Assembly (NCBI RefSeq): GCF_003044185.1
Contig: NZ_PYYB01000001.1
Location: 2,252,978 to 2,316,977 of the forward strand
DNA: 64,000 bases
Origin: Paraconexibacter algicola
GTDB lineage: Bacteria > Actinomycetota > Thermoleophilia > Solirubrobacterales > Solirubrobacteraceae
Direction of reading: 5' to 3'
In this document: piece after piece, positions 1 through 10,829 of the stretch
Position numbering within the stretch: the first letter of the stretch is position 1
Layout: each line of letters begins with the position of its first letter
The notes under the pieces: generated by a model
The model's database searches: none
Told to the model about the DNA's origin: nothing
What the model saw: the letters and a program-made list of their open reading frames with translations, nothing else
Program-made: the position numbers and the translations under genes

Positions 1-471
1 GCTGCCGAGACACCGGTCGCACAGGCATTCGAGCCCAGCACTGCCGCCCGGACGTGAAACGCGTGCGGCGCCCAGCTTTGCACGCCTGAGCGGATCTTCC
101 GGGTAGGAGTCGCCCGCCGTGATTCCGCAGAACCGGCACAGGTAGTCCGCGGCCGCGAGGACCGCCTGACGTTCCTTGGCCGTGGGCACTTTGGGCGCGC
201 GCGACTCGTAGCCAGGCTCCCAAACCGCGCCGCCCATCGCCTGAAGTCGCAACTGCTCAGGCGCGAGGGTGACGTCTTCGCGGTTTGTCGCGATCACCCA
301 GCCTTCAGCCCGGAGGTCGCGCATACGACGATCGACTTGTTCAACGCCCTCGAACGCCGCTCGGAGGTCGGCTTTAGTGAAGACGCCTCCGACGCCCACC
401 TCGGACGCCAGCCACAGCGCGACGCGAGTTCGCGTGCCCGCGTCAGATGCGCGCCAATCCGGGAGACTCAT
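1..471 (-). CDS. Winged-helix + HNH-type endonuclease (C-terminus off window)
   Basis: Frame open from an ATG at 471 to the left edge (157 codons seen, no stop). Residues about 1-75 read like a winged-helix unit: two helices, the helix DRRMRDLRAEGWVI and a wing. Residues about 97-157 carry a CRFCG zinc knuckle and, 40 residues later, CDRC, with AKERQAVLAAADYLC between the two parts. That order is typical of small HNH endonucleases of actinobacterial restriction loci. The HNH histidines must lie off the window, so catalysis cannot be judged. The gene diverges from the ParB-helicase-DUF3883 operon over 66 bp, and its GGAGAGG ribosome site lies inside the 22-bp palindrome, so it may be autoregulated. 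A partner such as a methyltransferase may lie further left. The nuclease call is family knowledge; the wHTH is by eye. Confidence 0.6.
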   Translation of the reverse strand, partial: MSLPDWRASDAGTRTRVALWLASEVGVGGVFTKADLRAAFEGVEQVDRRMRDLRAEGWVIATNREDVTLAPEQLRLQAMGGAVWEPGYESRAPKVPTAKERQAVLAAADYLCRFCGITAGDSYPEDPLRRAKLGAARVSRPGGSAGLECLCDRCLGS

Positions 472-502: not shown

Positions 503-541
503 ATGAGACGACGTTTTGCCGAGCCTGGAGGAGGCCGATGA
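503..541 (+). other. Possible 12-codon leader peptide coupled to the ParB gene
   Basis: A GGAGAGG at 491-497 lies 5 nt before an ATG that opens a 12-codon frame (MRRRFAEPGGGR). Its TGA overlaps the ATG of the ParB-type gene as ATGA. This could be a translationally coupled leader. It could equally be chance, because the downstream gene has its own GGAGGAGG. Confidence 0.2.
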
Positions 542-1968
542 CCGCCGTGCGCCCGCCGAACCACAACGAAGTCCGCGCCCTCATCGAAGAACGCCTCAGC
601 GCGTTCGAGCAGGGTACGGGTGAAACCGTGAGCATCGACTGGCGCGACGACGAAAAGCGAACGCTGAGCGTGATCAAGCTCCCGGTCAACGCGCTCTATT
701 TTAATCCGGACACGCACCGCATCCGTGCTCAGCGAACGCTCGATCCAGAGAAGGATCGTCAGCTGAGTGAAGACAAGTACAGCGCCGAAGCGCAGGCGTA
801 CCTGCGGGATCTTCTGCGCGGTGACCCGTCCGATCCGAGCAAGGTCGACCCGGCGTTCGAGAAGCTCAAGGACGACCTCCGCGAGCACGGGCAAAACGAC
901 CCCGGGATCGTGACGCGCGATGGCGTGCTGATCAACGGCAACACGCGGTGCGCCGCCCTTCGGGAGCTCGGCGTGGATCACATCCGCGTCGGCGTGCTGC
1001 CGACGGACACGAACCTCGATGACATCAACGCTGTCGAGCTGACGCTGCAGTTGCGGAAGGACCATCGCCGCGACTACTCATTCATGAATCTGCTGCTGGC
1101 CATCGACGAACGCGTCAAGGCCGGGTGGACGACGAAGCGCATCCAGCGCGAGTTCCGGTTCACGGCAAAAACCGTGGACAGGAATCGGTGGATCCTGAGT
1201 CAGGTACGCGAACTCATCGAACGAAGCACGGTTACTCACGCCGATGGCAGCACGACGGCGCTTCGCCTCGTCGATTTCGAGACCGATCAGGGGAAGCTCG
1301 AGGAGCTGCATCGCGCCTACACCGTTCTTAAGGCGGCGTCACCTGATCAGGCCGAGCAGCTTCGAGAGCAGCGCCTCCTCGCAATCGCGATGGATCACTC
1401 GAAGACCGACGTGCGGTTCATCGAACCGGACTTCATCGAGCGGCACGGCGCTGAGCTCAAGACGCTCGTCCCGAGCGGTGAAGTACCCGCGCCGCAGCCC
1501 GCTGCCATCCCGGGAACATCGATCGTGCCCGAGGCGCCGTCCAAAGAAGCATGGGACCTCGAGCGCTTGACGACGGAGGTCCTGCGGGCGAAGGCGATCC
1601 ACCGATCGACGGCGACGACGGACCACGACGCGCGCGAGCGCGCGAACGAGACGATCACGCGCACGAGGGCCGCCCTGAAGTCCGCGCTTGACAAGGCGGG
1701 CAAGACCGCGCTGCTTGAGAAAAAGAAGCGCGGCCCGCTGGAGCGGCTCAGCGATGCAAACGATGATGTCTTGGCGGCTCGCGACGACATTGTCGCCGCG
1801 AAGGCGACGGGTAATTTCGAGCCGGACGAACTCGACGACGTTCTCCTCAGCCTTCGTGCGGGCCTTCGAAAGCTCGCGGAGGCCGCGCGAACCGATCCCG
1901 CGAGTCCGGCCACCGGCGTGAGGTGGTTGATGCGGGTGGCTGCCTTGAGCACCGAAGAAGCGGACTGA
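538..1968 (+). CDS. ParB/sulfiredoxin-fold nuclease-like protein, first gene of defence-type operon
   Basis: 476 aa. The start at 538 is chosen for the GGAGGAGG 4-11 nt upstream; an open frame extends further 5' but would cross the palindrome and overlap the divergent gene. Residues 44-145 look like a ParB N-terminal domain: a beta-strand KLPVNALYFNPDTHR, then the ParB box around residues 129-145 (DGVLINGNTRCAALRELG), which in this fold binds nucleotide. The stretch LLLAIDERVKAGWTTKRIQREF with TAKTVDRNRW (residues about 185-225) resembles a helix-turn-helix. The Lys/Arg/Glu-rich C-terminus (about 340-470) is probably helical. The next gene starts 1 nt after the stop. ParB-fold proteins in defence loci can recognise or nick DNA; that role is inferred. 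Base composition is less GC-rich than downstream genes, suggesting transfer. Confidence 0.75.
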   Translation: MTAVRPPNHNEVRALIEERLSAFEQGTGETVSIDWRDDEKRTLSVIKLPVNALYFNPDTHRIRAQRTLDPEKDRQLSEDKYSAEAQAYLRDLLRGDPSDPSKVDPAFEKLKDDLREHGQNDPGIVTRDGVLINGNTRCAALRELGVDHIRVGVLPTDTNLDDINAVELTLQLRKDHRRDYSFMNLLLAIDERVKAGWTTKRIQREFRFTAKTVDRNRWILSQVRELIERSTVTHADGSTTALRLVDFETDQGKLEELHRAYTVLKAASPDQAEQLREQRLLAIAMDHSKTDVRFIEPDFIERHGAELKTLVPSGEVPAPQPAAIPGTSIVPEAPSKEAWDLERLTTEVLRAKAIHRSTATTDHDARERANETITRTRAALKSALDKAGKTALLEKKKRGPLERLSDANDDVLAARDDIVAAKATGNFEPDELDDVLLSLRAGLRKLAEAARTDPASPATGVRWLMRVAALSTEEAD

Positions 1969-1969
1969 C

Positions 1970-3766
1970 TTGCTCAACCTGCAGTTCGCCACAGAGGCCG
2001 GATTCGTCGAGATGAGCAGCGACGAAGCGCACGCTTCGTCGCTGCAGCACCTGAGCATGCGCTTCGGGACCGCGCGCATGCTCGGACAGCGATCAACCGT
2101 CATCGCTATTGACGACTTCCTGCTCAACCTGCCGGAAATCGCGTCGTGGCCCGCCGAGGATCACTCCAACGTCATCTGGCAGCCCGAGCTGCTTGATCTC
2201 GTCCAGAGCAGCGACTCCGACGCGCGGGTCATGAATTCCCGACTCACGCAAGACCAGGAGACTGGCCAGCACTTCGAGCTAGGTGACGAGTGGACCGCCC
2301 CGCTGACCGACTTTCAGCGGCGGGACGTAGGAGCGCTGATTGGGCTTACGCACGGAGCCAACTTCAGCGTCCCGGGCGCCGGCAAGACACGGGCGGCGCT
2401 CGCGGTATTCCAGGAGCGGCGCCTGCGGGGGGCGGTCGAACGCTGCCTCGTCGTGTGCCCCAAGCCGGTATTCGAGAGCTGGGAGGACGAGATCGCACAG
2501 TGCTTCGCGCGCGACAGCATCACCGTGACCTCAATGACTGACAGCGTCGTCCCGCCGACGGACGTCGTTCTCATCAACTACGAGCGCCTTCCCGACGCAG
2601 TCTCCCCGCTGACGCACTGGTTGCGTCGCAATCCGGCGATGCTGATTCTTGACGAGGCGCACAGGACCAAGCGAGGGCCCGGCGGCGCATGGGGATCAGC
2701 GAGTCTTGCTCTCGGACCCTACGCTCGATCACGCCTGATCCTCTCGGGAACACCAGCGCCGAACGGAGCCCGAGACCTTGAGAACCTCATGGGTTTCGTC
2801 TGGCCGGGTCGCGGCAGGAGGGCCGTTTCGCAAGCCCTCGCTGGGCGGGACCTGAAAGCGGCAAGTCAGCTCCTCCGTCCGCTGTTCGTTCGCACGACCA
2901 AGGCTGAGCTGGGGCTCCCTCCCGTGAACAGGGTCGTGCGGCAGATCGACCTCCCGCCGCTGCACCGGGAGATCTACCGCGCGCTTGTCGGCCAGGCCAG
3001 TTCATCCTTGACGGGAACGGAGGATGCTGACGCTCTTGGCCGCGTGCTGCTGTATCTCCTCATGGCTGCGACGACACCGGCGCTCCTCGCCGTGGGCTCG
3101 TCCAAGTACGAGCCGCTGCCGTACCGCGTGCCACCGCTCGAGATTCCCGAGCACACCGATCTTGCTACCGCGATGCGCGATCTACCGCTGTACGAGATTT
3201 CGCCGAAGTACCGCGAGGTCGCCAGTATCGTCGCGGCCAACGCAGCCCGCGGGCGCAAGACCCTGGTCTGGTCGACGTTCGTGCGCAACCTGACCTCACT
3301 CCAGACATTCCTGGGTCGCTTTCAGCCGGCGATGGTGCATGGTGGCACCGAGGACCGTGCCGCTGAACTCGACCGGTTCCGGCACGACGGCAACTGCATG
3401 GTGCTTCTGTCGAATCCGGCCACGCTTGGTGAAGGCGTGAGCCTCCATCAGGTCTGCAACGACGCCGTGTACATCGACCGCGACTTTGCGGCAGGCCGCT
3501 TCCTACAGAGCGTTGATCGAATCCATCGTCTCGGTCTCCCGCCCGAGACCGAGACGAACGTCACTTTCTTGATCGCGACGGACACGATCGACGAACTCGT
3601 ACGAGTGCGCCTCGAGCGCAAACTCGACTTCATGGGAAGCGTGCTCGACGATCCCGCAGTCTTGACGCTCACCGACTTCGACGAAGAGCCCAGCGCATCT
3701 GCGGGAATGAACGACGCCGATGTCGCGGCGCTGATCGGACACTTGCGTTCAAGTGCTCCCGCCTAG
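1970..3766 (+). CDS. SNF2-family (SF2) DNA helicase/translocase
   Basis: 598 aa from a TTG 1 nt after the ParB stop, with GAAGAAG upstream; an in-frame ATG at 2012 is an alternative. Motif I is SVPGAGKT (about residues 133-140), with Gly-Ala-Gly-Lys-Thr in place of the commoner GxGKT. Motif II is LILDEAHRTK (about 225-234) and motif III is LILSGTPAPNG. In the second RecA domain come TLVWSTFVRNL, VMHGGTEDRAAELDRF, LLSNPATLGEGVSLH and motif VI SVDRIHRLG. The Q-motif-like FQRRDVGALIGLTHG precedes motif I. This is a compact SNF2 core without large accessory domains. It likely moves along dsDNA, delivering the ParB-type and DUF3883 proteins. It overlaps the next gene by 14 nt, implying co-translation. 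Confidence 0.88.
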   Translation: MLNLQFATEAGFVEMSSDEAHASSLQHLSMRFGTARMLGQRSTVIAIDDFLLNLPEIASWPAEDHSNVIWQPELLDLVQSSDSDARVMNSRLTQDQETGQHFELGDEWTAPLTDFQRRDVGALIGLTHGANFSVPGAGKTRAALAVFQERRLRGAVERCLVVCPKPVFESWEDEIAQCFARDSITVTSMTDSVVPPTDVVLINYERLPDAVSPLTHWLRRNPAMLILDEAHRTKRGPGGAWGSASLALGPYARSRLILSGTPAPNGARDLENLMGFVWPGRGRRAVSQALAGRDLKAASQLLRPLFVRTTKAELGLPPVNRVVRQIDLPPLHREIYRALVGQASSSLTGTEDADALGRVLLYLLMAATTPALLAVGSSKYEPLPYRVPPLEIPEHTDLATAMRDLPLYEISPKYREVASIVAANAARGRKTLVWSTFVRNLTSLQTFLGRFQPAMVHGGTEDRAAELDRFRHDGNCMVLLSNPATLGEGVSLHQVCNDAVYIDRDFAAGRFLQSVDRIHRLGLPPETETNVTFLIATDTIDELVRVRLERKLDFMGSVLDDPAVLTLTDFDEEPSASAGMNDADVAALIGHLRSSAPA

Positions 3767-4658
3767 CGATGTCCTGCGGGCCGCGACCCGGTGGCTACGG
3801 TTGCTGCAGACGTCCACCCGGGACCAGGCATGGGAACTGGTCCGCGCGCGCGCCGCATACGCCGATGTTTCGTTGACCCAGTACGGGTTGGCCGAGGACC
3901 TGCTCCGCGAGACTGGCCTGATCGCACCGCATTCATCGTCAAGTCAGCTTCGAGAAGACCTGACCGACGCTTCGTCCGAGGTGCTTTCGACAGCGCTCTT
4001 CGACGCCATGCTGTCGGCGGCGAACCCCCGGTGGTTGCCGGATGCCGACCTCTTGGTCCCTACGCTGGACGACTTGCCCGCGGACGCAGCGGAGGCGGCC
4101 GACGCTGTGGGGCTGTCGGAAGCGGCCGCATTTCTCGCGATCGAGCGCGCACAGCGCAAGTTCGATGCCACCGATCGTGCCGCCGTTGGGACGGCTGGTG
4201 AACAAGCCCTGGTAGAGCTCCTCGAAGCCGATTACCCGGGCGGGGTCGACCATGTCTCCCAGCGCGACGACACGCTCGGATACGACATCAGGGTCGACAC
4301 CGGCGATGCGTCCTGGCACCTTGAGGTCAAGAGCACGACTCGACGAGGGCGACTGACGGTGTTTCTGTCCCGCAACGAGTTCCTGGTCGCCCAGCACGAC
4401 GCGGCGTGGAAGCTCGTAGTAGTTGGACTTCGAGAAGACCTTTCCCCGGGCGCAGTCTGCACTGGTAGTCGTCCCGCCCTGTGGGAGGCGGCTCCTACCG
4501 ACCGCCCCGGAGCGAGATGGGAGACCGCGCGTTTCGATCTTGCGCCAGAAAGTCTGACGCTCGGACTCCCGTTTCTCCCGAAGGCCGAGCAGACCATGCA
4601 CCTGGTCTCGCAACGCCACCGGTTCGGCTGGGCGCCAGCGACTAGCGGACATCAGTGA
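3753..4658 (+). CDS. DUF3883 (PD-(D/E)XK-like nuclease) protein
   Basis: 301 aa from a GTG inside the helicase gene (14-nt overlap). Residues 145-225 match the DUF3883 pattern: GTAGEQALVELLEA, then VDHVSQRDDTLGYDIRV, HLEVKSTTRRG and FLSRNEFLVAQ. Glu150, Asp178 and the Glu191-Val-Lys193 triad sit where a PD-(D/E)XK restriction fold places its metal-binding residues, so nuclease activity is plausible. The N-terminal 140 residues are helical with no match I can name. DUF3883 occurs at the C-terminus of NO VEIN-type and defence proteins; here it is a separate subunit next to a helicase. The C-terminal 60 residues look like a small beta extension. Two hairpins follow, so the operon probably ends here. 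Confidence 0.75.
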   Translation: MLPPSDVLRAATRWLRLLQTSTRDQAWELVRARAAYADVSLTQYGLAEDLLRETGLIAPHSSSSQLREDLTDASSEVLSTALFDAMLSAANPRWLPDADLLVPTLDDLPADAAEAADAVGLSEAAAFLAIERAQRKFDATDRAAVGTAGEQALVELLEADYPGGVDHVSQRDDTLGYDIRVDTGDASWHLEVKSTTRRGRLTVFLSRNEFLVAQHDAAWKLVVVGLREDLSPGAVCTGSRPALWEAAPTDRPGARWETARFDLAPESLTLGLPFLPKAEQTMHLVSQRHRFGWAPATSGHQ

Positions 4659-5559: not shown

Positions 5560-5639
5560 CCCGCGGCTGGCGCGACAGCGACCACCGTCCTGGCGCGCCG
5601 CCACTGTCAGAACACCTGTTCGCATGACGACCGTGGGTC

Positions 5640-6215
5640 ATGCAGCCCGATCTCCGCGTCACCATCCGCCGCGACGGCGTCGTCCGTGCCGTCACCTGGG
5701 GGCCGCATCTGCGGCTGTGCGGGCCGACCGCGACGCTGCTCGAGGCGCGCGACCGGGCCGGGGTCACGCTCGCGGATCTGCGGATCCTGCGCGACGAGGA
5801 GGACGGGCCCGCGACCGAGGTGATCGTCGAGCCGCTGACCGGCACCGGCCGTCCGGATGCGCACCGCGTGCTGGCCGACTGGGCGGCGCTGCTCGGCTAC
5901 CGGCGCGTCTGGCTGCCAGGGGACGTCCGCACGCTCGACACCGTCGACCACGCGCTGGCCGGCTGCGGCGGCAAGGTCCAGACGCACTGCACGACCTGCC
6001 GCGGCCGGCTCGCCGACGGCACGCCCGCCTTCTGGCGCTGGGTCCGCACGCTCGGCTTCTTCCCGTGCGCCTGCCCGCTCTGCGGCGGCGACCTGCCGCA
6101 GTGGTCCGCCGTCCCCGGTGTCGTGCGTCGCGCGTCGGCACGGCCCGCGCCAGATCGCGGCAGCGCGACCGCCGATGTGGGAGTGTCAGACCTCCGGCAC
6201 CCGGAGCGACCCTGA
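5640..6215 (+). CDS. Zinc-ribbon-like hypothetical protein
   Basis: 191 aa from ATG 5640 with a weak GTGGGT upstream. Residues about 1-105 form an alpha/beta domain I do not recognise (RVTIRRDGVVRAVTWG, then VIVEPLTGTG). Residues about 115-150 carry HCTTC, then FPCACPLCGG about 25 residues later, a Cys set suited to one zinc. The C-terminal 40 residues look disordered. The stop is 4 nt before the GTG of the sigma-like gene, so the two are probably co-transcribed and the protein may act with that regulator. No family assignment is made. Confidence 0.55.
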   Translation: MQPDLRVTIRRDGVVRAVTWGPHLRLCGPTATLLEARDRAGVTLADLRILRDEEDGPATEVIVEPLTGTGRPDAHRVLADWAALLGYRRVWLPGDVRTLDTVDHALAGCGGKVQTHCTTCRGRLADGTPAFWRWVRTLGFFPCACPLCGGDLPQWSAVPGVVRRASARPAPDRGSATADVGVSDLRHPERP

Positions 6216-6219
6216 CCTC

Positions 6220-6873
6220 GTGGAGCGACGCGCAGAACAGCTGATGAAGGAGTTCGTCCGCGCCCGCGCGCGCGGCGACAAGCCCGCGATGCAGCGCTGG
6301 TGGGGGGAGCTGCTCGCGCTCCAGTTCGACCGCCTGACCGCCATGGTCAAGCGCCACGCCCAGGGCGTCGTCTTCGGCTCCGAGGTCGACGACGCGATCT
6401 CCGAGGCCGCCATGCGCATGGCCCTCAAGGCGTGGCGCCAGCACGAGGGCGACACGGTGGGGTCCTTCAACGCGGCGATGTCGACCGTCTGCCGGTTCAG
6501 CTGCCGTGAGGTCCAGCGCAAGGCCGCGCGGATCTCCGAGCGCCGCGCCGGCTCGCTCGACGCCGTCCCGCGCGACGGCCGCGAGGCGCAGGGCTGGGCC
6601 GCCTCGACCTACGCCGACTTCGAGGCGGAGCGGCTGCGCGCCCACGCCGAGGAGGAGGAGCGCCGCGAGACGCTCGCCGCCGACCGCGACTTCGTCGCCT
6701 GGGCGGTGCCGCAGCTGCCCGGCCGGCCGCGCGAGGTGTTCGAGCTGCTGCTCGAGGGACGCACGCCGACCGAGATCATGGAGCGGCTGGGCATGGAGCG
6801 CAACGCCGTCGACCAGAACAAGAGACGGGCCGTCCAGGCCCTCCGCAAGCTCAAGGAGCAGTACCCGTCATGA
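6220..6873 (+). CDS. Sigma-70 family (ECF-like) RNA polymerase sigma factor
   Basis: 217 aa from GTG 6220; an ATG at 6244 would give 209 aa. Residues about 20-110 have sigma region 2 character: RLTAMVKRHAQGVVFGSEVDDAISEAAMR-type helices with a conserved acidic DD and aromatic positions. Residues about 160-215 are a region 4 helix-turn-helix: LPGRPREVFELLLEGRTPTE, IMERLGMERNAVDQNKRRAV. The linker is rich in Arg/Glu. It overlaps the following regulator by ATGA and follows the zinc-ribbon gene by 4 nt. The likely role is alternative promoter recognition under control of the neighbours. The sigma assignment is by pattern and fairly secure; target genes are unknown. Confidence 0.7.
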   Translation: MERRAEQLMKEFVRARARGDKPAMQRWWGELLALQFDRLTAMVKRHAQGVVFGSEVDDAISEAAMRMALKAWRQHEGDTVGSFNAAMSTVCRFSCREVQRKAARISERRAGSLDAVPRDGREAQGWAASTYADFEAERLRAHAEEEERRETLAADRDFVAWAVPQLPGRPREVFELLLEGRTPTEIMERLGMERNAVDQNKRRAVQALRKLKEQYPS

Positions 6874-7508
6874 CCTCCATCGAGCAGGTGCTCAGCGAGT
6901 TCATCGAGGCGTGGAACAGCGGCCGGCGGCCCGACGTCGTCGCGTTCCTCGACCGCGTCGCCGCCACCGACCGGGACGAGCTCGCCGAGGAGATCGGCCT
7001 CTGGCTCGAGGTCGCCCCGACCCCCGACTACGACGACGCGACGCTCGCGTCGATCACCGCCGACCCGCGACTCCAAGCGGCGCTCGCGGCCGGTGCCGCC
7101 AGCGTGCAGCCCTGGTCCGCGCGCGTCCGCGCGCTCCGGGAGAGAGCGGGGCTCGCGGTCGAGCAGGTCGCCGAGCGCATCGCCGCGCTCGTCGGCCAAC
7201 AGGGGCAGGAGGCCCGCACCGCCGCGTACCTCACCCGCCTCGAGGCGGACGAGCTCGACGAGCGACGCGTCTCCGGCCGGCTCGTCAGCGCGCTCGCCGC
7301 CGCCCTCGGCGCGGACCGCGACGCCCTGCTGCCCGGCCCGACGTTCACCGGGCGCGCGCTCGCCGCGCAGAACTACCGGGCCGAGGGCGAGGTCGACGCG
7401 TCCCTCAGCGCCGACTTCGACGCCCTGTCGCGCGCGGCCGCCGCCCCGGCACCGGCGCGCGAGCTCGACGAGATCGACCGCCTGTTCCTCGGCGGCCCCG
7501 ACGCGTAG
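6870..7508 (+). CDS. HTH (XRE-like) regulator coupled to the sigma factor
   Basis: 212 aa, starting inside the sigma stop (ATGA). The first 60 residues are acidic and helical (MTSIEQVLSEFIEAWNSGRR). Residues about 88-150 resemble an XRE/Cro fold: VRALRERAGLAVEQVAERI, then YLTRLEADELDERRVSGRL and VSALAAALGADRDALLPG. The C-terminal 60 residues are Ala/Asp-rich and end in LDEIDRLFLGG. Stop-start coupling to a sigma factor and convergence with an ImmA/IrrE protease 11 bp away suggest an anti-sigma or repressor that the protease could cleave. That circuit is inferred from gene order, in analogy to ImmR/ImmA. Confidence 0.55.
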   Translation: MTSIEQVLSEFIEAWNSGRRPDVVAFLDRVAATDRDELAEEIGLWLEVAPTPDYDDATLASITADPRLQAALAAGAASVQPWSARVRALRERAGLAVEQVAERIAALVGQQGQEARTAAYLTRLEADELDERRVSGRLVSALAAALGADRDALLPGPTFTGRALAAQNYRAEGEVDASLSADFDALSRAAAAPAPARELDEIDRLFLGGPDA

Positions 7509-7518
7509 CCGGGCGCGG

Positions 7519-8271
7519 CTAGACCCCGAGGCGCGCGAGCCCGCGCGCGAGCGCCTCGGGCTCGCAGCCCGCGAGCCGGGCGACGTCCTCGACCGTCGCC
7601 TCGCCGCGCAGCAGCGCCCCGAGCCCACCGTCCGACATCCGGGGAGAGAGGCGCGGCAGGTCCGCCGGCGCGATCGCGGACAGGGCGTCCTCGTGCTCGG
7701 CGGGCCCGAGGCGCTCCCAGACCGCGAGGTGCTCCTCCGCGTCCAGGCGCGGCTTCAGCGCCGCGTCGCTGTCGAGCAGCCCGAGCGTCACGCAGCGGTA
7801 GAGCGCGACGTGCGCGCTCACCCCGAAGTGCGCGGCGAGCTCGACCACGACCTCGAGATCGACGGTCCGACCGCCCACCACGTCCACCACCCCGGGCCGC
7901 GGGGCGAGCAGCTCGGCCGCGAACGCGTTGGCCTGCGTCTCGGTCGGCACCGTCTTGCCCCACATCGTCTTCGGCGTGTCGACGATCATCAGCTGGTCGT
8001 GCGCGCACCGGACATGCCCCAGCTCGTGCGCGAGCGTGAACCGCGACCGCGGCACGAACTCGTGCAGGTGCACCCACAGCATCCGCTCCTCGCCCAGCTG
8101 CCAGCACACCCCCTCGACCGTCCCGCTCATCCGCGTCACGTGCACCGGGATCCCCAGCCCGTCCTCCGCCAGCCCGAGCACGCAGCCGACCGGTGCACCC
8201 GCGTCCAGGCCAAGCTCGGCGCGCAGCTCCCGCGCGCGCTTGGCACCACGATTGGTGTCGGGACCGGGCAT
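7519..8271 (-). CDS. ImmA/IrrE-family metalloprotease
   Basis: 250 aa. The zinc-binding HExxH lies in FTLAHELGHVRCAH (about residues 79-92), followed by TETQANAFAAELLAP (about 108-122), whose Glu is the usual third ligand. The N-terminal 70 residues form the typical beta-rich lead-in (GIPVHVTRMSGTVEG). The C-terminal 100 residues are helical and may bind a partner. ImmA/IrrE proteins cleave HTH repressors to switch on stress or mobile-element genes. Here the probable target is encoded convergently just next door. A TAGCCT -10 box at 8286-8281 sits 9 nt before the ATG, so the mRNA is leaderless or nearly so. Confidence 0.85.
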   Translation of the reverse strand: MPGPDTNRGAKRARELRAELGLDAGAPVGCVLGLAEDGLGIPVHVTRMSGTVEGVCWQLGEERMLWVHLHEFVPRSRFTLAHELGHVRCAHDQLMIVDTPKTMWGKTVPTETQANAFAAELLAPRPGVVDVVGGRTVDLEVVVELAAHFGVSAHVALYRCVTLGLLDSDAALKPRLDAEEHLAVWERLGPAEHEDALSAIAPADLPRLSPRMSDGGLGALLRGEATVEDVARLAGCEPEALARGLARLGV

Positions 8272-8286: not shown

Positions 8287-8370
8287 CGCGACGCCCCGGG
8301 CGGTCCCGCACGCGTCAGATCCGCGCGGACCGCGACGACCCCGTAGAGGACACGACCCAGGAGACAGCCC

Positions 8371-8985
8371 ATGCCCGAGCAGCACACCGACACGCCCCTG
8401 CTGACCAAGCGGTTCGACGCCGCGCTCACCTACGCCAGCGGCCATCACCGCCGGCAGCTGCGCAAGGGCTCGGGGATCCCGTACGTCGCGCACCTGCTCG
8501 CGGTCGCGGCGATCGCCCTGGAGATGGGCGCCGACGAGGACGAGGCGATCGGCGCGCTGCTGCACGACGTCGTCGAGGACGGGGGCGGGCCCGCCGCGCT
8601 CGCCGACATCCGGGAGCGCTTCGGCGCCGCCGTCGCCACGATCGTGCAGGCGAACTCCGACACCGACGTCGAGCCCAAGCCGCCTTGGCGGGAGCGCAAG
8701 GAGGCGTACATCGACGGCATCGCGCACAAGCCGGTCGCCGCCGTCCGCGTGTCGCTGGCCGACAAGCTCCACAACGCCCGCTCGATCCTCCAGGACTACC
8801 GGCTCCACGGCGAGCAGCTGTGGTCGCGCTTCTCCACCGGCAGCGGCGACGACGTGCGCTGGTACTACGCGGCGCTCGCCGCCGCGTTCACCGCGCGCGC
8901 CGACGAGCTCGGCCCCGGCGCCCGCGCCGCGCTCGACGACCTGCAGCGCACGCTCGACCAGCTCGACGCGCTGACCGGGCGCTGA
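8371..8985 (+). CDS. HD-domain (p)ppGpp hydrolase-like protein (single domain)
   Basis: 204 aa with GGAGA 8-12 nt before the ATG. RKGSGIPYVAHLLAVA, then ALLHDVVEDGGG and VSLADKLHNARSIL follow the hydrolase domain of RelA/SpoT: the HD pair plus ED, and the DKLHN box. There is no synthetase, TGS or ACT domain, so this is a small alarmone hydrolase (MESH1/SAH type) rather than a bifunctional Rel. It probably lowers (p)ppGpp or hydrolyses a related 3'-phosphorylated nucleotide in the cytoplasm. It stands alone between the ImmA/IrrE gene (divergent) and the envelope trio. Domain assignment is firm; the substrate is inferred. Confidence 0.83.
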   Translation: MPEQHTDTPLLTKRFDAALTYASGHHRRQLRKGSGIPYVAHLLAVAAIALEMGADEDEAIGALLHDVVEDGGGPAALADIRERFGAAVATIVQANSDTDVEPKPPWRERKEAYIDGIAHKPVAAVRVSLADKLHNARSILQDYRLHGEQLWSRFSTGSGDDVRWYYAALAAAFTARADELGPGARAALDDLQRTLDQLDALTGR

Positions 8986-9042
8986 GCGCCACGGGGCGGG
9001 CGCCCCGTGTCAGACCCGCGGGCCGGGTGGCGACTCCGGAGC

Positions 9043-9567
9043 ATGTCCGAGTCACCGACCCCCGAGCCCGGCCCGGGGACCACCACCATCACCGTCCCGT
9101 CCCCGCGGCGCGTTCTCACGACGCTCGCGCTCGTCGTCCCGCTCCTCCTCGCCGTCAGCGCCGCCGGCTTCTTCGTCGGGCAGGGCACGCGCAAGAGCGA
9201 CGACCAGGTCGCCCGCGAGAGCCGCGCCGCGGCCGCGCAGGCGGTCGCCGTCGCCGTGCCGCGCGCCGTGAAGATCGCGGTCGAGCGCAAGGGCGCGGAG
9301 GACAAGGCCAAGCGGCTGCGGATCATGGAGCGCGCCGAGCGCCGCCTCAAGGCGCGGCACCGCACCGTGCTGCGCCGCGTCGTGCGCAAGCTCAAGAAGT
9401 CCGGGGACCGCAAGGCGCAGCTCGCGTACACGAGCGGCAGCAGCGCCGGCTACTCCAGCGGCCGCGAGGACGGCCACGAGGACGGCGTCCGCGACGGGAT
9501 CGTCACCGCGTCCGACGACCTCAGCTGCAGCGACGACCCGGACGTCGCCTTCCTCCCCTACTGCTGA
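9043..9567 (+). CDS. Single-pass membrane protein with basic helical and Gly/Asp tail
   Basis: 174 aa from ATG 9043; a GTG at 9007 would add 12 residues. The N-terminus is Pro/Thr-rich and cytoplasmic, then one membrane segment (VLTTLALVVPLLLAVSAAGF, about residues 22-41). Outside, residues 55-125 form a long Arg/Lys/Ala helix (coiled-coil-like), followed by a Gly/Ser/Asp stretch with SGSSAGYSSGREDGHEDG and two C-terminal cysteines. I know no family for it. It precedes two PASTA-like proteins in the same direction with short gaps, so it may belong to one envelope assembly. Confidence 0.6.
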   Translation: MSESPTPEPGPGTTTITVPSPRRVLTTLALVVPLLLAVSAAGFFVGQGTRKSDDQVARESRAAAAQAVAVAVPRAVKIAVERKGAEDKAKRLRIMERAERRLKARHRTVLRRVVRKLKKSGDRKAQLAYTSGSSAGYSSGREDGHEDGVRDGIVTASDDLSCSDDPDVAFLPYC

Positions 9568-9588
9568 CCCACGAAAGGACCGACGACC

Positions 9589-10035
9589 ATGCTGCGCCAC
9601 CTGGCGCTCGCCCTGACGAGCGCCCTCCTGCTCTCCGCCTGCGCGGAGACCGACCCGGCCGACCAGCGCGCCGACCAGGCCCCGCCCGAGACGATCACCG
9701 TCACCCGCACGGTGATCCCCGACGCTGCGGCGGCCGCCGACGAGCCCGCCGAGGACCGCGCTCCCGCCGAGATGCCGGAGCCCGACCCCGAGCCCACCGA
9801 CGACGGCGGCGACTGCATCACCGTGCCGGCGGTCCAGGGCAAGGACCACCAGCTCGCCCAGGACACCATGCAGGCGGCCGGGCTCTACCTGCTCGACGAG
9901 GAGGACGCCACCGGCCAGGGGCGGATGCTCATCATCGACCGCAACTGGACCGTGGTGGAGCAGCGTCCCGCGGCCGGCGCCTGCGTCGACGCCGACACCA
10001 CGATCCTCCTGCGCAGCCGCAAGGACGGCGAATGA
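9589..10035 (+). CDS. Lipoprotein with one PASTA-like domain
   Basis: 148 aa, with AAAGGA upstream of the ATG. The signal peptide ends in the lipobox LLSAC (Cys19), so it is probably a lipid-anchored exported protein. A Pro/Glu/Asp-rich linker to about residue 75 is followed by a PASTA-like module: CITVPAVQGKDHQLAQDTMQ, AAGLYLLDE, then WTVVEQRPAAGACVD and TTILLRS. PASTA modules of kinases and penicillin-binding proteins sense muropeptides, but no kinase or transpeptidase is nearby. It overlaps the next gene by ATGA, so the two are co-translated. Confidence 0.75.
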   Translation: MLRHLALALTSALLLSACAETDPADQRADQAPPETITVTRTVIPDAAAAADEPAEDRAPAEMPEPDPEPTDDGGDCITVPAVQGKDHQLAQDTMQAAGLYLLDEEDATGQGRMLIIDRNWTVVEQRPAAGACVDADTTILLRSRKDGE

Positions 10036-10829
10036 GCACCCCGCCCTCCACCCGTCGGCCCGGCGGCCTGCGCGCCCGCGTCGGCCGCCGTCCGCTGACC
10101 TGGCTCTCGGCCGTCGTCCTGGCGGCCCTCCTGGTCGGGGTCGCGATCGGTCAGACCGACACCGTCCTGGCGGCCGACCTGAGCAAGGCGCGGAGCGTCA
10201 ACACGCGGCTCCAGGCCGACCTCGACGCCGAGCGTCGCCGGGCCACGGACGCCGAGCGTGCCCGCGACACCGCGGTCGCCAAGGCCGACCGCGCGCTCGC
10301 CGAGGCCCGGCGCATCACCGCGCGCGGAAAGGTCCCGAGCTTCCAGGGCCAGGACGTCGACACGGCCCGTGACCGGGCGGTCGTCGACGACTTCGACTGG
10401 CGGGTGACGCAGCGCTCCAGCGTGTCCCGCGCGGAGCCGGGCACCGTCATCGCCCAGCGGCCGAGCGCGGGGCGGACGCTGGCGCGCGGCGGGACGATCG
10501 AGCTCGTCGTGGCGAAGAAGCCGCCACCCCGGCCCAAGCAGTGGGTGACGATCTACTCGCTCGACGGCGCGGGCTCCAAGCGCACCGGCGAGTTCCGCAT
10601 CCCCGGCGACGTCAAGGTCCGCGTGCGCTACACGTTCGGCGGGGACTCAAACGACACGCTGCAGCTGAAGACCCCCGAGGAGGGGGACGACAGCTTCGGC
10701 GACCTGATCGTCAACGAGATCGGGCCGTTCAGCGGCTCCACGCGCCTCTACGGCAAGTCCGGGACGTACTACTTCGACGTCAACGGCGGAAGCTGGACGA
10801 TCGAGGTCCAGGCGTTCAAGCGCCCCTGA
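10032..10829 (+). CDS. Membrane-anchored coiled-coil protein with PASTA-like domain
   Basis: 265 aa, start coupled to the lipoprotein stop. One membrane segment (PLTWLSAVVLAALLVGVAIG, about residues 23-42), then a coiled coil about 50-95 (LQADLDAERRRATDAERARD). A PASTA-like module follows at about 98-160 (KVPSFQGQDVDTARDRAVV, SAGRTLARGGTIELVVAKK). The C-terminal 100 residues form a beta-rich domain ending in SGTYYFDVNGGSWTIEV. The layout suggests an anchored rod holding a ligand-binding module in the wall. The last 14 nt overlap the 3' end of the convergent hydrolase gene. Confidence 0.72.
   Translation: MSTPPSTRRPGGLRARVGRRPLTWLSAVVLAALLVGVAIGQTDTVLAADLSKARSVNTRLQADLDAERRRATDAERARDTAVAKADRALAEARRITARGKVPSFQGQDVDTARDRAVVDDFDWRVTQRSSVSRAEPGTVIAQRPSAGRTLARGGTIELVVAKKPPPRPKQWVTIYSLDGAGSKRTGEFRIPGDVKVRVRYTFGGDSNDTLQLKTPEEGDDSFGDLIVNEIGPFSGSTRLYGKSGTYYFDVNGGSWTIEVQAFKRP

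Follow-up and report, generated by a model that had tools for sequence, protein, structure and literature searches.

A conserved unit of sigma factor, helix-turn-helix protein and ImmA/IrrE protease in Thermoleophilia, a possible damage alarm of a new kind

The window analyzed here, a stretch of 64,000 nucleotides from the 4.74-Mb genome of Paraconexibacter algicola (class Thermoleophilia), contains adjacent genes for an extracytoplasmic function (ECF)-type sigma factor, designated SIG, a helix-turn-helix (HTH) protein and an ImmA/IrrE protease. These three genes form a conserved unit, apparently a damage alarm of a novel type. We consider it probable that the products act as a three-protein signalling unit, in which a damage-activated protease would cut the HTH partner and free SIG for repair and defence genes. 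A broader proposal, for which we regard the case as evenly balanced, is that many Thermoleophilia possess a second, sigma-based damage response beside LexA. In this response, an ImmA protease activated by single-stranded DNA (ssDNA) would release an ECF sigma factor from an HTH anti-sigma factor, break repair (RecC, TM0106 nuclease, NurA, SbcD and SSB) and defence (CRISPR genes, type I restriction, SNF2 and HerA-type helicases) would be jointly induced, and a mobile offshoot would be joined to an SbcCD-like nuclease operon.

A search with the HTH protein gave matches in 51 of 151 relatives. With the corresponding profile, matches were obtained in 92 of 299 class genomes; 79 have an E value of 1e-15 or better, and the rest are mostly partial. 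The gene is thus present in about a quarter of the sampled class genomes. In the phylum sample, 29 of 396 genomes were matched; the sole near-full-length match outside the class is in genome G427, and the other matches there are limited to a portion of the profile. Relatives of the HTH protein are encoded on 29 named contigs, most of which bear the label Solirubrobacterales or another of Thermoleophilia. The gene neighbourhood was examined at 95 loci, a subset of all matches; they come from 90 genomes, of which all except one belong to the window's class. The original prediction had proposed a module of four genes, and three of these indeed keep together: 93 loci have an ECF-type SIG gene immediately before the HTH gene on the same strand, and in 87 a protease gene is no more than 3 kb from the HTH gene. 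The fourth, a zinc-ribbon gene, does not belong to this order, as only six loci were found to have it close to the HTH gene (the window, L037, L048, L059, L071 and, by tblastn, genome G082). The protease gene is downstream on the same strand in 60 loci, downstream on the opposite strand in 25 and upstream in two. Six of the eight loci without a protease gene within 3 kb reach a contig edge within 80 bases; the protease gene of L054 is approximately 3.1 kb away, and L068 has none. In 76 of 92 measured cases, the reading frame of SIG runs into that of HTH, a count that is biased toward short gaps by taking the start codon nearest to the sigma stop (L194 had no start). Genes of sigma factors and their partners commonly overlap in this way, and the overlap bears indirectly on an anti-sigma role.

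Reading frames confirm the four genes of the window (zinc-ribbon-like, sigma, HTH and ImmA/IrrE), and domain matches confirm the identities originally given to the last three. As described before, SIG starts 4 nucleotides (nt) downstream of the zinc-ribbon stop codon (from 6215 to the GTG at 6220), and an ATGA sequence combines the SIG stop with the HTH start. The protease gene is convergent, but not at the distance of 11 bp that had been stated, because the stop codons are 10 nt apart. SIG matches the NCBIfam model TIGR02937 (sigma70-ECF) over residues 43–210 with 47.6 bits (cut-off 42.9) and narrowly passes Pfam Sigma70_r4_2 (26.7; cut-off 25.7). No Pfam region 2 match was found in SIG of the window; among 33 homologues, Sigma70_r2 is matched in 19 and Sigma70_r4_2 in 22 at E values up to 0.1. 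By these domain matches, SIG is an ECF sigma factor that holds regions 2 and 4 within a short protein. A large C-terminal extension of the ECF41 type was not found in SIG, whose region 4 ends at residue 208–210 of 217. Two loci (L045 and L047) have an additional partial sigma-like gene of 116 amino acids upstream of SIG.

The HTH protein consists of a helical N-terminal domain (residues 1–78), an XRE-type HTH domain (approximately 80–156), a linker of low confidence (159–171) and a C-terminal motif, DEhDxLFxGG. The HTH_31 match to residues 84–152 is marginally above the cut-off (27.2 against 27), and the extra N-terminal domain is conserved in the alignment. An AlphaFold2 (AF2) model has a mean pLDDT of 87 and a pTM of 0.63, and structure comparison indicates that its HTH fold resembles SinR, DdrO, CapH, ImmR (7t8i) and other XRE proteins. 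The PDB search with this model was uninformative on the N-terminal domain, giving no Foldseek match at E < 0.08, and the VIA rows cover residues 79–161. This domain may resemble the N-termini of planctomycete kinases. Arg170 in the linker is aligned in all 26 sequences of alignment A5, and Arg occupies that column in 19 of the 33 sequences of alignment A1; as a sign of cleavage by the protease, this is suggestive only. The protease matches Peptidase_M78 at an E value of 8e-15, and its active site is intact, with His82, Glu83, His86 and Glu111 invariant in 27 of 27 aligned proteases. Its AF2 model (pLDDT 92) has CapP (7t5t, E 1.5e-6), IrrE and ssDNA-bound PprI as the best PDB matches, and the best PADLOC match is capP (E 1.6e-21). 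With an HExxH motif, a downstream Glu and, by the model, an M78 fold, it is a Peptidase M78 (ImmA/IrrE) protein. The HTH repressors DdrO and CapH are cleaved by PprI and CapP, respectively, with ssDNA as a stimulus (PMC10904395, accessible part).

A promoter-like motif, GTCAG-N17-CGAC, is present in 30 of the 88 SIG upstream regions of at least 200 bases (0.15 expected from base composition), and the motif seed in 31 of 93. The matrix built from these 31 regions, which include that of the window, placed at least 19 of 59 other regions above the 99% level of shuffled regions; SIG scores are not independent of this matrix, whereas those of genes outside the module are. The exact form, TGTCAG-N17-CGAC, occurs three times in the window (0.18 expected; reached in 0 of 100 shuffles) and six times in the whole genome (reversed control 0); three of the six copies lie within 3.4 kb in the window. 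In 28 of 92 strong matches, CGAC stands 8–10 nt before a start codon, a spacing that would fit these boxes as −10 boxes of leaderless transcripts. The published ECF41 promoter is TGTCACA-n16-CGTC (PMC3426412, accessible part).

We compared genomes with and without the unit, where "without" denotes no HTH hit at an E value of 0.001 and the genomes may be incomplete. TGTCAGR-N16-CGAC, hereafter the first motif, has 109 matches in twenty genomes with an HTH hit (reversed control 7; one of them, G074, counted on its HTH hit alone) and 41 matches in twenty genomes of the same family without a hit (control 13; Fisher p 0.0015). A looser motif in the family sample gave 116 matches against 15 for the control in 15 close genomes, which were chosen for strong HTH hits, and 246 against 76 in 32 genomes with a hit. 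Two genomes counted as lacking the unit (G025 and G056) have clustered TGTCAGA motifs and could contain a divergent version of it. In a second clade, CGTAAGA-N18-GACT takes the place of the first motif upstream of SIG. This pattern has 25 matches in 14 genomes with the SIG–HTH pair (control 2) and none in 11 genomes without it (control 8), nine of which are of other families. Seven of the 25 matches precede SIG, the regions from which the pattern was read, and are not independent of it. Those independent of that source include three before ARPP-1, one before a protease gene and one before a PLD/HerA-type gene. ARPP-1 is a target in both clades. That the motif shifts from one sigma clade to the other and this target does not is our strongest indication that SIG would itself read the motif.

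Outside the unit, the first motif is placed like a promoter before genes for RecC (G042 and G002), RmuC and a TM0106 RecB-like nuclease-helicase (G062), NurA and ARPP-1 (G018), SbcD (G131), SSB (G119) and PD-(D/E)XK AddB-like proteins (G145 and G137). The same placement was found before Cas7-like GSU0053 proteins (G039 and G002), Cas3 (G012), HsdM (G034), SNF2 and DEAD helicases (G039 and G063), a NERD-kinase protein (G042), a cREC protein (G107), VWA proteins (G001, G042, G107 and G108) and recurring small families of unknown function. For the Cas7-like and NERD-kinase targets, the motif is 125–138 nt upstream, farther than for the others. The 40 remote regions behind this list were chosen by hand among motif matches, which enriches it; the figures for the SIG loci and the whole genomes are free of that choice. 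At the SIG loci, which were not selected for the motif, it precedes all five scored members of the zinc-ribbon family, three of four TM0106 genes, three of five VWA genes and three of three genes of a TPR family, compared with 38 of 669 non-module genes overall. It precedes ARPP-1 in only 4 of 16 SIG-locus copies, many of the others belonging to other clades. A role of ARPP in antiviral ADP-ribose systems has been proposed (PMC9503650, accessible part). A UvrD-like gene in L048 is not counted among the targets, since the motif there is located beyond the gene end. Five to six motif copies are clustered away from the sigma gene on contig C171 of G042 (L270–L272) and at C1:2435702-2443726 of G107 (L273), with several copies before RecC, NERD-kinase, VWA, cREC and zinc-ribbon-like genes.

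In the proposed mechanism, SIG and the HTH partner would be produced together, and the HTH protein would most likely be a soluble anti-sigma factor that keeps SIG inactive. DNA damage or phage attack would activate the protease, probably via ssDNA as in PprI and CapP, judging from the fold, and the protease would cut the HTH protein; the most likely site is the flexible linker near the conserved Arg170. The freed SIG would take RNA polymerase to TGTCAGR-N16-CGAC promoters, or to CGTAAGA-N18-GACT promoters in the second clade, a step with strong sequence evidence. The predicted promoters would drive the sigma–HTH operon itself, its neighbours, among them the zinc-ribbon gene, and genes that process DNA breaks or act in defence, with a content that depends on the genome. 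We infer this chain from damage to free SIG because of the fold match of the protease, the coupling of the genes and the predicted regulon.

Several observations weigh against this reading. The HTH domain could bind DNA, and binding of the HTH protein to the sigma factor is putative. With the looser motif, 59 family genomes without the unit exceed the control (266 against 143), as do the twenty mentioned above with the first motif, and part of the target list is therefore due to chance. The motif lies within 20 nt upstream to 150 nt before a start in 36 of 50 remote matches, compared with 3 of 20 matches in genomes lacking the unit and 253 of 4000 positions drawn at random, but the remote regions were hand-picked and mostly have TGTCAGA, whereas the 20 control matches were unselected; among the control matches with TGTCAGR, two of nine are promoter-placed. 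Four of the 14 second-clade genomes have no match to CGTAAGA-N18-GACT, and the comparison genomes of that clade come mainly from other families. Some targets (an M20 peptidase, an HD/OB protein, lipoproteins, ClpC as judged from a look at the sequence, and unknowns) have no evident tie to repair or defence. Finally, 30 of 32 genomes, some with the unit and some lacking it, have a LexA_DNA_bind domain above the cut-off, and the unit is therefore no replacement for the SOS response.

A possible, though doubtful, alternative is that the HTH protein is an ordinary DNA-binding repressor of the sigma operon, similar to DdrO or CapH, so that proteolysis would derepress SIG, which would then switch on the regulon with no anti-sigma partner involved. 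The HTH domain superposes on the DNA-binding domains of DdrO, CapH and ImmR with Z scores of about 9, as it does on many XRE domains, and a TGAA-N8-TTCA palindrome (TGAAnCA-type) is found upstream of 6 of 25 convergent protease genes, where 0.02 were expected. However, these six loci (L188, L189, L191, L197, L198 and L203) are from six genomes of a single genus, and the palindrome is absent from all SIG upstream regions. Across the alignment of 31 SIG promoters, conservation is almost confined to −35 and −10; no palindrome that could serve as an operator is common to them, the commonest being present in four or five. This lack of a common operator weakly favours sequestration of the sigma factor over repression at DNA. 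Moreover, the HTH gene remains coupled to SIG even where the protease gene is elsewhere, and its product has the conserved additional N-terminal domain.

It is unlikely that the HTH protein is instead a co-activator that steers SIG to its promoters, with the protease ending the response. The overlapping frames of SIG and HTH would suit such a pair, and some protease genes carry the motif (the first in L061 and L065, the second in L347), as for a feedback shut-off. On the other hand, the protease starts the response in PprI–DdrO and CapP–CapH (PMC10904395, accessible part), and no second conserved DNA element accompanies the motif. We give still less credit to the motif being an operator bound by the HTH protein rather than a sigma promoter. 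The unit does encode an HTH-type protein, and the boxes hold GTC...GAC, a 3-bp inverted repeat; yet the two boxes are unlike each other, have a near-fixed spacer and are close to the ECF41 promoter given above (PMC3426412), and their position before start codons resembles that of leaderless −10 boxes. A palindromic operator was also sought in the SIG promoter alignment and had no support there. Chance proximity of a sigma operon to an unrelated protease or toxin-antitoxin type pair is scarcely credible: ImmA–XRE pairs are common (PMC2701414, accessible part), but the protease gene keeps its place with two main orientations, and the two other M78 genes of the genome have no SIG or HTH family member within 1.5 kb on either side.

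CapH–CapP of CBASS controls an adjacent immune operon and ImmR–ImmA of ICEBs1 controls a mobile element; neither is known to include a sigma factor. The present unit is similar to CapH–CapP in its protease, which has capP and CapP as best PADLOC and PDB matches, and in its link to defence genes; the compared feature is the ssDNA-activated cleavage of the HTH protein there (PMC10904395, accessible part). Its predicted regulon is spread over the genome, unlike that of CapH–CapP. ImmR–ImmA shares the HTH fold (7t8i), and ImmA is required to inactivate the HTH repressor by proteolysis; ImmA–XRE pairs as such have long been known (PMC2701414, accessible part). PprI/IrrE–DdrO of Deinococcus likewise comprises an M78 protease and an XRE-type HTH protein with a DNA-repair regulon, and the protease model matches IrrE and ssDNA-bound PprI. 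In contrast to that system, where DdrO binds an operator motif at target promoters (PMC10904395, accessible part), the present unit couples an ECF sigma factor to the HTH protein, and the predicted targets share a sigma-type promoter. ECF41 resembles it in the overlapping genes, the self-directed promoter, which is predicted for SIG, and the motif (PMC3426412, accessible part), but SIG lacks the C-terminal extension and is paired with an HTH protein that has its own dedicated M78 protease. The terms IrrE and helix-turn-helix did not occur in the ECF reviews that were searched for them, and no description of a sigma–HTH–ImmA unit was found in the literature searched, which covered few subscription papers and is weak evidence. 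Known bacterial damage responses use release of a repressor (LexA and DdrO) or activation of a WYL activator (PafBC, SiwR and DriD; PMC12288472, accessible part). If our proposal is true, proteolysis of an HTH anti-sigma factor would form a direct link from damage to a sigma factor for both repair and phage defence, and would provide a route to the co-induction of CRISPR, restriction and repair genes. The promoter motif makes the regulon, which is rich in genes of unknown function, testable at once.

The features of the window are listed in Table 1. The switch originally proposed is partly upheld: the sigma–HTH–protease set is conserved, but the zinc-ribbon gene was rejected as its fourth component, being found in few loci, on either side of the unit and with its own motif copy in every scored member. 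The unit is also not self-contained, as the predicted promoter occurs elsewhere in these genomes. The zinc-ribbon gene is better explained as a predicted target; in G082, the motif is 8 nt before its frame. Two CxxC pairs (HCTTC and CPLC) can be read in the protein, which has no match in Pfam, PADLOC or NCBIfam. At a matrix score of 14, a match precedes 5 of the 12 window genes below 12 kb and 0 of the 42 beyond. The window has nine sites with at most one mismatch (7.4 expected), so that the copy at 8313 is not significant by itself, and the assignment of the HD gene therefore rests on its position and matrix score. PASTA matches were found in ORFs 9589–10035 (just below the cut-off) and 10032–10829. 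In the run at 538–4658, the 476-amino-acid gene has no Pfam match, and the SNF2 helicase shows a weak likeness to DrmD; the run is a possible undescribed defence operon. Of the other exact motif copies in the genome, one on contig C2 is separated by approximately 0.9 kb from the gene of a type I methylase (HsdM), and this gene has a separate matrix match.

Table 1. Positions in the window of the unit, the motif copies and the predicted regulon members (PWM, position weight matrix; ORF, open reading frame)
Feature	Positions	Strand	Basis or remark
Weaker motif	440-469	+	PWM 16.1; before gene run 538-4658
Possible regulon: 476-aa gene, SNF2 helicase, NOV_C protein	538-4658	+	Weak motif
Exact motif, TGTCAG-N17-CGAC	5605-5631	+	8 nt before zinc-ribbon ATG
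Zinc-ribbon-like protein gene	5640-6215	+	Predicted regulon member, outside core unit; motif before 5/5 family members
Predicted SIG-HTH promoter, TGTCAG-N17-CGAC	6184-6210	+	9 nt before SIG GTG
SIG, ECF-type sigma factor, 217 aa, GTG start	6220-6873	+	TIGR02937 above cut-off; Sigma70_r4_2; upstream of HTH in 93/95 loci
HTH partner, 212 aa	6870-7508	+	HTH_31; alignments; AF2 model; XRE-like HTH fold
ImmA/IrrE (Peptidase_M78) protease, 250 aa, HELGH + Glu111	7519-8271	-	Peptidase_M78 match; catalytic residues; AF2 model
One-mismatch motif, CGTCAG...CGAC	8313-8339	+	Before ORF 8371; PWM 20.8
HD_4 domain protein, predicted regulon member	8371-8985	+	Pfam; motif
Exact motif, TGTCAG-N17-CGAC	9008-9034	+	8 nt before ORF 9043-9567
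Three predicted-regulon ORFs (9043-9567, 9589-10035, 10032-10829)	9043-10829	+	Exact motif upstream; Pfam

In four dispersed genomes (L185, L192, L196 and L202), SIG, a small gene of 132–152 amino acids, the HTH gene and the ImmA gene form a compact, mostly overlapping run, which stands before SbcD/Mre11-like and SbcC/Rad50-like genes (domains checked against Pfam in L192 only). This offshoot looks like a mobile repair or defence system, and an E1–E2-like gene adjoins it in L185. Genome G158 has a second, apparently degenerate copy of the unit (L201), with a partial HTH gene, a protease gene split over two frames and no sigma gene found.

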